From Candidatus Nitrosotenuis chungbukensis (GTDB taxonomy: Archaea; Thermoproteota; Nitrososphaeria; Nitrososphaerales; Nitrosopumilaceae): a stretch of DNA of 64,000 nucleotides. The notes beneath the pieces are model-generated. The model made no database searches, had not been told where the DNA came from, and worked only from the letters and a program-made list of their open reading frames with translations. The stretch covers positions 1 through 64,000 of the forward strand of contig NZ_AVSQ01000017.1 of assembly GCF_000685395.1 (NCBI RefSeq), written 5' to 3'. This document shows, one piece after another, positions 53,982-61,543 of the stretch (the first letter of the stretch is position 1; each line of letters begins with the position of its first letter). Made by a program: the position numbers and the translations under genes.

Positions 53982-54121
53982 GTTGACTTTCTCATGAGGC
54001 TATTTTGATGTATTAAAACATTACTTCTGGTGCTGTTCTCGCATTGTTTTTTGTGATCATATGGGATGTGTCTTTGGGTTGGTCCCGGATCTGATTTTGC
54101 TCAAATGAGATCGTATTAAAT

Positions 54122-54193
54122 AAAAAATGTGCCAAGATAAGATTTTAGTGAATTATTATGCATATCACCAAAACTCGGTTCAAATTTGATTGC
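54122..54193 (+). repeat. Direct repeat, copy 1 (degenerate tRNA-Phe-type att-like site)
   Basis: Shares about 60 bp with copy 2 at 55856-55919: GTGCCAAG, then GATTTTAGTGAATTATTATG, later TCACCAAAA and TTTGATTGCT. Its TGCCAAG (54130-54136) matches the 3' end of tRNA-Phe. An 11-base insertion distinguishes it. The distance to copy 2 is about 1.73 kb. Confidence 0.6.
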
Positions 54194-54287
54194 TGATAGA
54201 TATCTGTGAAATAATAATGGTAGGATGCTACTTTACATTTTTTCTTCATAACCTATGTTCATAGTTGAGAATCAGAGGTGAAAATCG

Positions 54288-55184
54288 GTGTCTAGTGTTA
54301 ATACCTTTAGACAGCCATCCTCCATAATGGCAAGTCCGTATGTCATAATTGGCATATCCATAGGTGTTTTTTTTGCAGGGCTTGGAATTGGTTATGCGAT
54401 TTTTTCAGCAAACCAATCTTCTATCTTTATGCACATGACACCACAGCAAATGCAACAAATGATGGGCAACCCGCAAATGATGACCCAGTGGCATCAAACC
54501 ATGATAAATGATCCACAAGCAATGAACAGCTGGATGAACACAATGATGGGCAACCCACAAGCAATGCAACAAATGCACGATTTGATGATTAACAATCCTC
54601 AACACATGCAGACAATGATGAATACGATGGGCCCAAGTATGATGAATAGTATGATGAGCAACCCACAGATGAGTCAACAGATGATGGGCATGATGATGCA
54701 AAATCAACAGTTCATGCAAGGAATGATGATGAGTCCACAGTTTCAGCAAAACTGGATGGGACCTTGGATGAGCAACAGTACTAACTGGCAAGGAATGATG
54801 GGATCCGGTTGGATGAATCCGGGAATGATGGGAAACAACATGATGGGATCAGGGACGATGATGGGAACACCAATCACAAAAAACAGTGAAGTGATGTCTA
54901 CAATAAACAATGTCAAGAAATTGCTAGATCAGGTCTCAGTAAGATACAATGATGGCGATGTATCTGGAGCATTTGGCCTTGCAACAGAGGCATACCTTGA
55001 AAATTACGAGTATGTCGAAAGTGCAATTGCGGCAAAAGACCTGAACTTGATGGAAAAAATCGAGTTCATGCTAAGAGTTGAGCTGCGCTCCATGATTCAA
55101 AATGAAGATCCAATAGAAGACATTGACGCAAAGATAAATTCCATAAAAGAGAATCTTGATGATGCAAAATCGCTATTCCAATAA
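54288..55184 (+). CDS. Membrane-anchored Met/Gln-rich metal-binding protein
   Basis: 298 residues. An N-terminal helix (about 17-40) anchors it. Residues about 45-195 are Met-, Gln- and Asn-rich, with repeated NPQ-MMxQ, MMGNPQ and MMGSG words and many Met-x-Met pairs typical of Cu(I) binding. The C-terminal 100 residues are helical and acidic. It is probably extracytoplasmic and copper-related, fitting the high copper need of ammonia oxidisers (known). GTG start; an ATG at MASPYV is possible. Confidence 0.82.
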   Translation: MSSVNTFRQPSSIMASPYVIIGISIGVFFAGLGIGYAIFSANQSSIFMHMTPQQMQQMMGNPQMMTQWHQTMINDPQAMNSWMNTMMGNPQAMQQMHDLMINNPQHMQTMMNTMGPSMMNSMMSNPQMSQQMMGMMMQNQQFMQGMMMSPQFQQNWMGPWMSNSTNWQGMMGSGWMNPGMMGNNMMGSGTMMGTPITKNSEVMSTINNVKKLLDQVSVRYNDGDVSGAFGLATEAYLENYEYVESAIAAKDLNLMEKIEFMLRVELRSMIQNEDPIEDIDAKINSIKENLDDAKSLFQ

Positions 55185-55198
55185 TTTTTTATTTTAAC

Positions 55199-55777
55199 CT
55201 ATGATAGTGGCGGAATGAGCCACTGCATTATTTCTGGATATGGGATGTCTAATCCATAGATGATTAAAGGGATTCCTGTTGCCGCAAGCAAGATTCCAGA
55301 AACCAGTCTCGTCAGTTTTAATGGAATTCTCTTGATTATTCCAAGGTATAGCAATCCTACGATTAACCCTATTGCCAGCACTGCACCAGATATTGCGCTT
55401 GCCATGTCTATTAGGCTAAATGTTGCTAGCGCAACTGAGTTTTCTATCGCTTCAAGTATTGCGATGTAAAAGTAGCCTATCTTGTATTTGGTAACGTCTT
55501 TTTCTTCACGCTCTAAAAACTCCTTGAACATTGTGTAGCTGAAATACAAAAGACCTACGCCAAGTGCAATTTCTACCAGATTTGTTGGGAAAAATTCTAC
55601 TGCATTTAGGAACAGAAAATAAAGCGCGATTCCAACGGCCAAGCCGATTAATGTGATTTTGAGTGTTTCCCGGTATCCTATTCTAACAAGTGTTCCAATT
55701 CCGACAAGGGCTTGCTCCCCACCCTCGACAAAAACATACTTGAAGGCAGTAAAGAATACGATGAACTCAAAGGCCAC
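55199..55777 (-). CDS. FTR1/EfeU-like membrane permease (tentative)
   Basis: 192 residues with six helices. VFVEGGEQALVGIGTLVRIG in helix 1 and FYIAILEAIENSVALATFSL in helix 4 recall the paired REGLE motifs of FTR1-type iron permeases, though Arg is not kept. It lies convergent with the Met-rich protein gene, so a metal-handling unit is plausible. Specificity is unknown. Confidence 0.7.
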   Translation of the reverse strand: MAFEFIVFFTAFKYVFVEGGEQALVGIGTLVRIGYRETLKITLIGLAVGIALYFLFLNAVEFFPTNLVEIALGVGLLYFSYTMFKEFLEREEKDVTKYKIGYFYIAILEAIENSVALATFSLIDMASAISGAVLAIGLIVGLLYLGIIKRIPLKLTRLVSGILLAATGIPLIIYGLDIPYPEIMQWLIPPLS

Positions 55778-55855
55778 AAGTCTGGATTTCTGATTATGTA
55801 TTTAGAAGGTTTGTCAGTGTCAGCCTAGTTTACAACATGTTTTAATTGAAATATA

Positions 55856-55919
55856 AAAAAATGTGCCAAGGGTGGGATTTTAGCGAATTATTATGTACCC
55901 TCACCAAAATTTGATTGCT
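55856..55919 (+). repeat. Direct repeat, copy 2, with tRNA-Phe 3'-end core
   Basis: TGCCAAGGGTGGGA (55864-55877) is identical to the 3' 14 bases of tRNA-Phe (57674-57687, same orientation on the plus strand) and matches 16 of 17 when extended. The rest matches copy 1 over about 45 bp but not the tRNA. This geometry fits an attR-like scar at the far end of an element inserted at tRNA-Phe. Confidence 0.65.
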
Positions 55920-56077
55920 AGAGTAAGAGGATATGGTCGGAGGTTAGATTTTGCCCTTTTTTCAGCCCTAGAATAGATCTGGACAAGGGTAAAGAAACAC
56001 GAGCTAAATGTTTCAGAGTATGACTAAATCACAGGATTGCCCTTATGAGTAGTCCATCAAAAGATGTAATGACTTGT

Positions 56078-56728
56078 TTAAGGCGGTACTGGAAAATTAT
56101 CAACAGAAGTTCCAATACTGTGCTTTATGATTTGTGGAGTATTGCATTCCATCCCGTCTGGAATAAATGCCAATCTTTTGATGAATTCGGCGTACTGGAT
56201 TCCGTCCAACTCAAAAACATCAGTAAACGTATAGACGTGCAAATTTCTATTCATAAAACATTCACCTACAAAGCTCTTACCTTTCTGTATATTGGCAGTA
56301 TACTCAAAATCACTATCAGGATTCATGTCACCATCACTGTCAACATCGCTAAACGTTATTCTCACGGTATCCTGATCTATTATTTCTAAATCCTTTATTC
56401 CTTGCAGCCGTACATTTTCAGTATTTTTTATAAAAAAATATCCGCCATAATCGATTGGCGTAATGAATCTCCCATGCACATCTGACTCTGGATGTCTAAT
56501 GATACGTGGCTCAACACATACAAAACCTTCTTTTGTTTGCATGCATGTATTTCCAGCTTTTTCCAATTCTGTCTTACAGTTAACGTCACAGGGATCCAGT
56601 ATTGGGAAAACCTCTAAACTTTCTAAGGGCGCCCTCCAAACCACATAATCATAAAGAGTCGGACTCAACACAGCAACGATAACCACTGCAATTATGATGC
56701 CAATGAATTTTTTCTGGAAGATGTACAT
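56078..56728 (-). CDS. Membrane-anchored extracytoplasmic protein
   Basis: 216 residues. One N-terminal helix (about 8-28), then an exported beta-rich part. Cys in PCDVNCKTELEKAGNTC and VCVEP could form disulfides. DVDSDGDMNPDSDFEY is an Asp-rich Ca-type loop. It lies inside the probable tRNA-Phe island. No family recognised. Confidence 0.72.
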   Translation of the reverse strand: MYIFQKKFIGIIIAVVIVAVLSPTLYDYVVWRAPLESLEVFPILDPCDVNCKTELEKAGNTCMQTKEGFVCVEPRIIRHPESDVHGRFITPIDYGGYFFIKNTENVRLQGIKDLEIIDQDTVRITFSDVDSDGDMNPDSDFEYTANIQKGKSFVGECFMNRNLHVYTFTDVFELDGIQYAEFIKRLAFIPDGMECNTPQIIKHSIGTSVDNFPVPP

Positions 56729-56895
56729 GTTATTTTGTTAAAATTAGAAATAAAAATGGAAAAAAGTGTTTTATGTACATGTTAACGCATTCATGCCTGA
56801 ACACATTAACTTTGCGTACAAATTTACTTTCATTCAAGTTTCAATTACGGGTTTACAGAGTTTGTTTAAAAATTTTGAAAATCTTTAGTCAATCG

Positions 56896-57153
56896 TCATT
56901 TGTATACGTCACTTCTATGTGATATGTCGTATATCTTTGCAGTACCCTCTTCACGGAAAAATAGGATTCTGTAATCTCCAACCCGAATCCTGTAATGGTT
57001 GTCATACCCCTTTAGTTTCTTTATATCAAGTCTGCATGTTGGCCACATGGATTCAAGCTCATTTAACGCAGTTCTGATTCTCTTCTTTAGGTCATTAGGA
57101 AGTTCATCAAGTTTGTTAGAAACTTCTTTTTTAACTAAAACCTTGATTGTCAA
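56896..57153 (-). CDS. RelE/ParE-type toxin
   Basis: 85 residues. LDELPNDLKKRIRTALNELE in the N-terminal helices, RIRVGDYRILFFREEG and the final DISHRSDVYK match RelE-type ribosome-dependent mRNA interferases (R, Y, HR residues). TTG start. The antitoxin gene lies 8 bases upstream on the same strand, the normal order. Confidence 0.9.
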   Translation of the reverse strand: MTIKVLVKKEVSNKLDELPNDLKKRIRTALNELESMWPTCRLDIKKLKGYDNHYRIRVGDYRILFFREEGTAKIYDISHRSDVYK

Positions 57154-57161
57154 ACCTGAGA

Positions 57162-57401
57162 CTAGTTCAACGAATCTAACGGCAAGTACTCTGCTTTCTT
57201 TTTTGATTCAAAATTCTTTATTGCCTTGCTTTCATATTCGTCTGGACTGTCTTCTCGTATCATGTTCTTTTCTATCATTTTTTGTAATTTGACAATCTTC
57301 ATGTTAAGCAGCTTTATTTCCCGGTCAGTAGTTTGCTTGTATTTTTTGACATCCCTCATAATCTTATTGATCTCCTGCCGTGATGTCATCCTAGTTTCCA
57401 T
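57162..57401 (-). CDS. Antitoxin partner of RelE
   Basis: 79 residues. A helical DNA-binding-like or dimerising N-part (MTSRQEINKIMRDVKKYKQT), long helix, then a flexible tail (KKKAEYLPLDSL) likely to wrap the toxin. Known antitoxin families are not clearly matched, but position and size support the role. Confidence 0.82.
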   Translation of the reverse strand: METRMTSRQEINKIMRDVKKYKQTTDREIKLLNMKIVKLQKMIEKNMIREDSPDEYESKAIKNFESKKKAEYLPLDSLN

Positions 57402-57673
57402 GTGTGATGACTGATATGGTGTTAATTGACTAAAAAGGATTACGTAACTGTTTGGTGTTTTGAAGCATTATTCCCGATGGCACTATTCCAAAAAAGACTG
57501 TTGGAAAATATTAGAATTGTTGTAGGATTCAATCTTTAGGTTGTATTGTGATTTAAGATCATTAGTATATTGCTGATATTCTAAAACTATCCAATTCAAA
57601 ACTGACTGACTTTGGACTCTATTTTTTTAGGTTTTAAAAAATCGGGCTCAAATTATTAGAAAAAAGAAAATTA
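57402..57673. other. Non-coding stretch between antitoxin gene and tRNA-Phe
   Basis: About 270 bp, AT-rich, no gene seen. It would contain the end of an integrated element next to the tRNA and the promoter of the toxin-antitoxin pair. Confidence 0.4.
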
Positions 57674-57747
57674 TGCCAAGGGTGGGACTTGAATCCACGA
57701 CAGCTCGGTCTTCAGCCGAGTGCTCTCCCAGGCTGAGCTACCTTGGC
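57674..57747 (-). tRNA. tRNA-Phe (GAA)
   Basis: 74 bases on the minus strand. The acceptor GCCAAGG pairs with CCTTGGC, D-arm GCTC/GAGC, anticodon stem CTCGG/CCGAG with loop CTGAAGA (anticodon GAA), discriminator A, no intron. The T-arm reads GTGGA-TTCAAGT-CCCAC, so the universal G53-C61 pair is replaced by A53-C61, an unusual mismatch. The 3' 14 bases are duplicated at 55864-55877. Confidence 0.93.
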
Positions 57748-57808
57748 GTCAATTTTTCTGTAAACTGGGGGGAATTAAAGTGTCTTTTGCTTTGAAAAAA
57801 TCCAAAAT

Positions 57809-60244: not shown

Positions 60245-61439
60245 AGATTTGGTTCTGTCAAATCTACAATTGATTGATCTGACTCATCACAATCTGCTTC
60301 ACATCTTTTGACTGCTTCATTGCTTCATCTTGTGATGCGTTTGGCCTGAACCCCATGCCTCGTAACTGCACTGCTGGTATTCCTTTGTATAGAATATTTC
60401 GTGCAGCATTGATATCGCGGTCTTCTCTGTGACCACAATGACATCTTATCTGTCTGTTCTCTTCGGGGATCACTTTTGCCCCACATATCGAACACTTTGA
60501 TGATGTATGGTTTGGTTTTATCTTGATGACATCGATTCCATTATACCATTTTGATTTGTATTCTAGTTGCTTTCGGAATTCATAAAATGGCCAGCCGTTG
60601 AGCCTTGAACGATATTTTGTTCCTTGACCGTTTCCTTTTTGATATAGTTTTCTAATTCCAGTTAGATCCTCAAGAATTATCTGTTTTTTCTGCTCTACAA
60701 GTTTTTTTGTAATGTTGTGAATAATTTGTTGGGTTTTGCATTTTTGCTTTGTGCCGTATTTTTGAAAAATCTTTCTCCTAATTCGTGTGTCGTTTCGCTT
60801 AAAATGTGATGTCACTTTTCTGTATCTCTCTTTGATTTTTGTTATCTTGACTATATCTGAGTAAACATTAGTCGTTCCATCAGAGTGAACGGCTGATATG
60901 TTATTCAGATTTGTATCTATTCCAATAAATTCCACAAATTTGATACTTGGCGTTTCTTTTAATATTGAAATTGATATTGTATCTTGGGTAATTGTAATTG
61001 CTCCAATTTTAGTACATGGATCAGAGATTTGTGACACCGTATAATTATTTAATGGAATTCCAACATATGATTGTCCGGGACGGACTCCGATTAGAAGCGT
61101 GTTTCCAATGATTCTGTATGACTGCTTATCAACAATAACATGTGGTTTTTTGTAATGTGGAATTTTGGCATTTGGATTCTTTCTTCTCGTTTTTCTTAAA
61201 TGATTGATTTTTGACCTCGCTATCTGCATTGCTCTTGCAACATACAGTTTGAGAAATTCTGTATTGTCTGACAAGTAATGATATACATTTGAATTGAAAG
61301 CTTGCTGCGAGGTAATGTTTCTTTCTATTCCGATTCTAATTGCTTCGTTGATCATCCACCTGAATTCTTCCATTAGCAATACTAGTTCAGGACTGTTATG
61401 ATGTTGAATAACAGATATTGTTGATTCCGTGTATTTGTA
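60245..61439 (-). mobile_element. IS200/IS605-type (TnpB-only) element, approximate limits
   Basis: A lone tnpB without a TnpA gene. AGATTTG (60245-60251) pairs with CAAATCT (60259-60265) across the tnpB stop, a hairpin that may belong to the right end or omega-RNA scaffold. At the other end CTGTTAT (61393-61399) pairs with ATAACAG (61408-61414). Exact ends cannot be fixed without an empty site. Confidence 0.55.
60264..61379 (-). CDS. tnpB: TnpB-like RNA-guided nuclease
   Basis: 371 residues. RuvC residues are complete: D155 (FIGIDTNLNN), E237 (IILEDLTGIRKL) and D320/D322 (REDRDINAARNI); the zinc finger is C296-x2-C299 and C313-x-C315. It should cut DNA guided by an RNA from its 3' end. The open frame continues upstream of the TTG start by about 20 TnpB-like codons (to 61439) without a start codon, so the 5' end may be decayed. 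A short N-terminus results. Confidence 0.92.
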   Translation of the reverse strand: MLMEEFRWMINEAIRIGIERNITSQQAFNSNVYHYLSDNTEFLKLYVARAMQIARSKINHLRKTRRKNPNAKIPHYKKPHVIVDKQSYRIIGNTLLIGVRPGQSYVGIPLNNYTVSQISDPCTKIGAITITQDTISISILKETPSIKFVEFIGIDTNLNNISAVHSDGTTNVYSDIVKITKIKERYRKVTSHFKRNDTRIRRKIFQKYGTKQKCKTQQIIHNITKKLVEQKKQIILEDLTGIRKLYQKGNGQGTKYRSRLNGWPFYEFRKQLEYKSKWYNGIDVIKIKPNHTSSKCSICGAKVIPEENRQIRCHCGHREDRDINAARNILYKGIPAVQLRGMGFRPNASQDEAMKQSKDVKQIVMSQINQL

Positions 61440-61543
61440 TTATAAAATAACTGTATAATGACTGGGTTATTGCGTAATTACCGATCTATCATATATTTGG
61501 CAATACCAGAGATTTTAAATTCTGATGGGTGGATATCCACAGA

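Follow-up and report, generated by a model that had tools for sequence, protein, structure and literature searches.

The closest systems described are the additive flexible genomic islands of bacteria, reported at tRNA genes in Alteromonas (PMC4119200), Ca. Actinomarinales (PMC7771536) and Methylophilaceae (fGI-2, PMC10872708). The excerpted accounts of these islands describe direct repeats of the tRNA end that mark cassettes stacked at a conserved tRNA gene; content and length vary, and relatives have empty or short versions. Integrated mobile elements of thaumarchaea have been catalogued by Krupovic et al. (2019, PMC6563490), with 39 cases in tRNA genes bounded by attL/attR repeats, including five elements in four tRNA genes of Ca. 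Nitrosotenuis AQ6f; the cryptic elements of that catalogue by definition carry an integrase, and none is shorter than 2.6 kb. Tandem insertion of archaeal elements is also known (PMC8371274). Here we describe an array of short units at the tRNA-Phe gene of Candidatus Nitrosotenuis chungbukensis, at positions 54130-57673 of a 64,000-nucleotide stretch of contig 17 (the window, to which coordinates refer unless another locus is named). It shares with the bacterial islands the stacked cassettes, the tRNA-end repeats and the empty or shorter versions in relatives, but it is archaeal, its units are about 0.9-2 kb long, and they carry a conserved arm beyond the tRNA repeat of a kind that the excerpted accounts of the islands do not describe. 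The host is an ammonia-oxidising-type thaumarchaeon, judged by its gene content and named matches; its 1.76-Mb assembly is 98% complete and was compared with 16 other species-level genomes of the genus, designated by number below.

We consider it very probable that short units, two at the minimum and probably three (A, X and T), were integrated at tRNA-Phe by a tyrosine recombinase and make up an array at 54130-57673. The target gene and the sites bounding the array are as follows.

54085-54129, no strand: chromosomal sequence once downstream of tRNA-Phe, displaced 3.5 kb (matching at 88% over 49 bp)
54119-54195, plus strand: distal attachment repeat, with a degraded core from 54130 and an element-side arm (profile 68.1 bits)
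55852-55925, plus strand: internal attachment repeat, with the exact core at 55864-55877 and an element-side arm (profile 68.9 bits)
57638-57673, plus strand: A-rich arm adjoining the tRNA 3' end, resembling the tRNA-side arm of segment C in genome G009
57674-57687, plus strand: attachment core TGCCAAGGGTGGGA at the tRNA 3' end, the proximal attachment site
57674-57747, minus strand: intact tRNA-Phe (GAA), the integration target, with its 3' end at 57674 (ARAGORN; Rfam RF00005, 61.4 bits)

The core is the final 14 bases of tRNA-Phe in plus-strand reading, and its exact recurrence at 55864-55877 was part of the original prediction, made from the sequence of the window; none is expected by chance (zero in 100 shuffles, even with one mismatch). 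The partial copy claimed at 54130-54136 is real, and consists of TGCCAAG at 54130 followed by GATAAGA, that is, seven bases and then a remainder with one base deleted. Distances between the cores are 1734 bp and 1810 bp, in keeping with the segment sizes of 1.73 and 1.81 kb given before. The two outer copies have in common an arm of about 50 bp, ATTTTAGYGAATTATTATG...TCACCAAAA...TTGATTGCT, which has no counterpart in the tRNA and is 83% identical over 54 bp (E 8e-8 in a search of the whole genome), close to the 45 bp originally suggested. A profile of the repeat gives 68-69 bits for both outer copies versus 17 bits for the tRNA copy, and since it was built from these same repeats its scores on them are not independent. 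Within the repeats, GGGTGRG...CTCACC forms an imperfect inverted repeat (55878-55905) whose halves are some 23 bp apart; it is kept in several copies and may serve as a recombinase binding site. The tRNA-side arms of the units are A-rich and otherwise unlike each other, as expected if every unit brings the tRNA an end and a terminator-like run of its own.

Relatives have empty tRNA-Phe sites. When 54085-54129 is joined to 57674-57747, the composite aligns with the tRNA-Phe site of G007 at 92% with no internal gaps, and G008, G005 and G016 have no more than about 80 bp between tRNA-Phe and the conserved flank; G012 is an empty site matching the element in G013. Because these sites are empty, the alignments place 54130-57673 as an insertion exactly at the tRNA-Phe 3' end, and the predicted geometry, with an intact tRNA and cargo on its 3' side, is borne out; gene order and repeats are not universal in the genus. 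Composition, also proposed as a check, is consistent with this reading, in that G+C is 39.4% in A, 36.6% in X and 33.1% in T, below the 41-42% of the flanks. A different insertion of 4.7 kb, carrying an IS240-type DDE transposase, is present in G007 (L136 8763-13477), between the equivalents of 54026 and 54088, a few tens of bases outside the empty tRNA-Phe site.

Where the site is occupied, the contents differ. G009 is the closest relative, with flanks mostly 92-95% identical to the window, and has three repeats (877702, 879446 and 880292) ahead of a tRNA-Phe gene that begins at about 881753; its units are in the order A-T-C, as opposed to A-X-T in the window and D-T in G003. Unit C carries a histidine-kinase fragment. 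In G003 the flank leads into a distal repeat, then unit D, which encodes a DUF6659 protein, then another repeat, and finally T, which runs to the contig end. One type of arm is present in the repeats that precede A, X and C, and in those preceding T in G009 and G003; a related second type precedes D in G003 and marks the far end of the G013 element, the attR of which the G003 distal repeat resembles. G013 has a single 19.3-kb element at tRNA-Phe, with a tyrosine integrase (PF00589, E 1.9e-11) 42 bp from the tRNA. Its far end, 19.3 kb off, resembles the window repeat (78% over 52 bp, E 2e-4 in that genome), which provides the match to an element end that the original prediction had called for. 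This pairwise match is independent of the profile, which scores 60.7 bits there on a copy included in its training set. This element also encodes a homologue of the Met-rich protein of unit A, as well as a copper-type ATPase and regulator genes, assigned by eye. An integrase gene or fragment also lies beside tRNA-Phe in G014 (on a second small contig; 63% at the amino acid level) and G015, and G002 has a related scar within the same flank.

Among the 17 genomes of the genus, repeats with the common arm occur only at tRNA-Phe. In 200 genomes of the family, the matches of the profile in other genera look like chance and fall within a single conserved coding region (GIDVPRV..., by eye DEAD-box-helicase-like). 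Two viral contigs were considered as carriers of the repeat and rejected, having neither tRNA nor matching context: the arm match in L175 sits in a coding frame, and L232 has a core with no arm. We also note two observations from these genomes. Contig 20 of G007 has a lone tRNA-Phe core with a type-2-like arm (L228 4893-4954, 30 bits) with no tRNA gene in the 20 kb examined around it, possibly the scar of an ectopic insertion. In the G013 element, L140 8847-9842 encodes a 331-residue protein whose motif PHFHLVGFG is reminiscent of HUH rolling-circle initiators, with no match in Pfam; it may correspond to the published element NitAQ6f-E2.

The original prediction spoke of two insertions or remnants. 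At least two insertions are needed; two is the minimum, and the relatives G009 and G003 point to three units in the window. In both relatives the RelE block starts immediately after a repeat, whereas in the window the homology to T starts near 56812, in the inner part of a repeat-type arm with unit X in front of it. Because T directly follows a repeat there and begins within the remains of an arm here, the proximal 1.81-kb segment is probably two units, X and T, joined near 56812. T is no longer similar to G009 beyond 57472, and the 36 bp next to the tRNA look like the end of G009 unit C (81% over 53 bp for arm plus core), which weakly suggests that a unit was lost on the tRNA side of T too. 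The units and their cargo are as follows.

54130-55863, no strand: segment A, 1734 bp, common to G009 at 94%
54288-55184, plus strand: Met-rich protein, 298 residues, with an N-terminal hydrophobic segment; homologue in the G013 element (66% at the amino acid level), no Pfam family
55199-55777, minus strand: hydrophobic membrane protein, 192 residues, patchy (15 of 151 family genomes)
55864-56812, no strand: putative unit X, about 0.95 kb, missing from G009, where T directly follows a repeat
56078-56728, minus strand: 216-residue protein of unknown family with a hydrophobic segment at the N-terminus; scattered weak homologues within the family
56795-56845, plus strand: putative arm remnant of T, its outer part lost or unrecognisable (alignment with G009 and G003)
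56812-57673, no strand: putative unit T, about 0.86 kb, preceded by a repeat in both G009 and G003
56896-57153, minus strand: RelE/ParE-family toxin, 85 residues (PF05016, E 5.8e-7, 30.4 bits, cut-off 23)
57162-57401, minus strand: presumed antitoxin, 79 residues, from its position upstream of the toxin in the same direction

The RelE assignment of the original prediction holds on the Pfam score. Its FTR1-like permease, the 192-residue membrane protein, has no such backing: neither Pfam nor NCBIfam supports it, with no family even at E 5, and any relation to FTR1 would be very remote. The Met-rich protein has some match in 79 of the 151 family genomes, partly through low-complexity or C-terminal parts. 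A PADLOC search for defence genes gave one marginal match (E 0.0019), to the presumed antitoxin, and no attachment sites were found beside distant homologues of the toxin or the membrane protein.

The arrangement fits repeated insertion at a tRNA 3' end by a tyrosine recombinase. An enzyme of the type in the G013 element would join attB, the tRNA 3' end, to attP, the equivalent core on a circular unit. The incoming unit would bring a new tRNA 3' end, the old core and the chromosomal downstream sequence would be shifted outward, and the displaced core would end up joined to the conserved arm of the unit. Later units would use the rebuilt tRNA or an internal repeat as their point of entry, leaving the tRNA intact and the unit borders marked by repeats. 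The recombinase type, the circular intermediates, the order of events, and the use of an integrase that was either supplied in trans or lost from the units are what we infer in this scheme.

Several points weigh against an array of recombinase-inserted units. As originally stated, there is no integrase at the locus: a search with the G013 integrase found neither the gene nor a remnant in 54000-57800, and none of the five annotated open reading frames is an integrase in Pfam. The host assembly has no integrase of the G013 type, the two other host integrases being only remotely similar, and the viral contigs have no match to it. No enzyme for the common arm type was thus found. The border between X and T is placed by comparison with relatives, the profile recognises no full third repeat there, shuffling of the alignment gives p 0.08, and neither excision nor a circular form can be demonstrated from sequence.

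Two origins for integrase-less units at this site carry about equal weight: the units were either cut down after insertion or moved in trans. In the first, successive full-size integrase-bearing elements entered at tRNA-Phe and each lost its integrase and most of its genes by internal deletion. We would place this account somewhat short of an even chance. The elements of G013 and G014 and the fragment in G015 show integrase-bearing elements at this gene, unit A has a homologue of a G013-element gene, and decay is evident in the degraded distal core and T arm and in the RelE/ParE toxin gene that is frameshifted in G009 (L135 9589-9841). However, five units (A, X, T, C and D) would all have to lose an integrase without a detectable trace while retaining both the arm of the repeat and the A-rich stretch that precedes the core, and A is of unchanged size in two species.

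The second origin supposes non-autonomous units: small cassettes whose attachment sites are intact and which another element's integrase moves in trans. We hold it with the same reserve, as a possibility somewhat short of an even chance. One conserved arm is common to unrelated cargo, and T has a different neighbour in each of three genomes (X in the window, A in G009, D in G003); therefore units have been reshuffled or acquired more than once, although loss of X in G009 could also account for part of the order. In 80 non-coding bases T is 84.5% identical to G009 but 89.6% to G003, even though the flanks are clearly closer to G009. The comparison covers little sequence (194 aligned bases; Fisher p 0.08), and independent acquisition of T in G003 is suggestive but not significant. 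That no cognate integrase for the common arm type was found weighs against this origin.

A bolder form of the same idea likens the array to integron cassette arrays, integrase-less attC clusters and the integrons of archaea, which in outline also have short cargo units between recombination sites, and here one unit has a toxin-antitoxin pair. It differs from them in having no intI or attI, a repeat derived from a tRNA, a tRNA gene as target and no folding above shuffles, and an integron or attC cluster in the strict sense was rejected (no integrase at the locus, folding z-scores of -0.8 to 0.7 and no hairpin or attC-like structure in the repeats). That the array is an archaeal, tRNA-anchored counterpart, with integrase-less cassettes of about 1 kb that have a conserved attachment site of about 60 bp and undergo insertion, excision and reshuffling in trans through the integrase of larger tRNA-Phe elements, seems to us rather doubtful. 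The imperfect inverted repeat would also fit a structural or regulatory repeat that resembles the tRNA end by coincidence and is no attachment site, but this is highly improbable and largely refuted by the empty sites, which end exactly at the core, as well as by the restriction of common-arm repeats to tRNA-Phe among the 17 genomes of the genus, by folding no better than shuffles, and by Rfam, in which the tRNA is the sole match near the gathering score around the repeats.

Returning to an array of integrated units, the locus has the features of an additive flexible island, with one tRNA target, differing stacked cassettes and direct repeats of the tRNA end (G000, G009, G003 and G013), and those of a tRNA-gene island, with an intact tRNA at one end, a displaced and degraded 3'-end copy at the other and an empty site that ends at the core. 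The missing integrase is needed for an autonomous element and not for an island, and because they have none we do not file the units as autonomous elements. The G013 element, with its integrase and attachment repeats, is of the kind catalogued as thaumarchaeal cryptic elements, whereas the window units are shorter and lack the integrase. Assignment as a tycheposon, a tRNA-anchored element of 4-200 kb with a tyrosine recombinase in the excerpted definition (PMC10872708), was likewise rejected, the units being 0.9-1.8 kb with no recombinase. Elsewhere in the window, a TnpB-like gene (60264-61379, with a Cas12f1-like TNB domain) lies in an insertion of about 1.25 kb (60261-61507); G007, G008 and G009 lack this insertion and have its flanks directly joined.

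We found no earlier description of this array in the main texts of openly available papers. It is a small but genuine instance of a known route by which microbes add genes, and offers a compact case with clear limits in which one archaeal tRNA gene has received insertions repeatedly. The mobile elements of this archaeal group have so far been catalogued mainly through their integrases, and surveys of that kind would miss these units because they lack an integrase and are shorter than the smallest element catalogued. The conserved arm provides a handle for finding further units.

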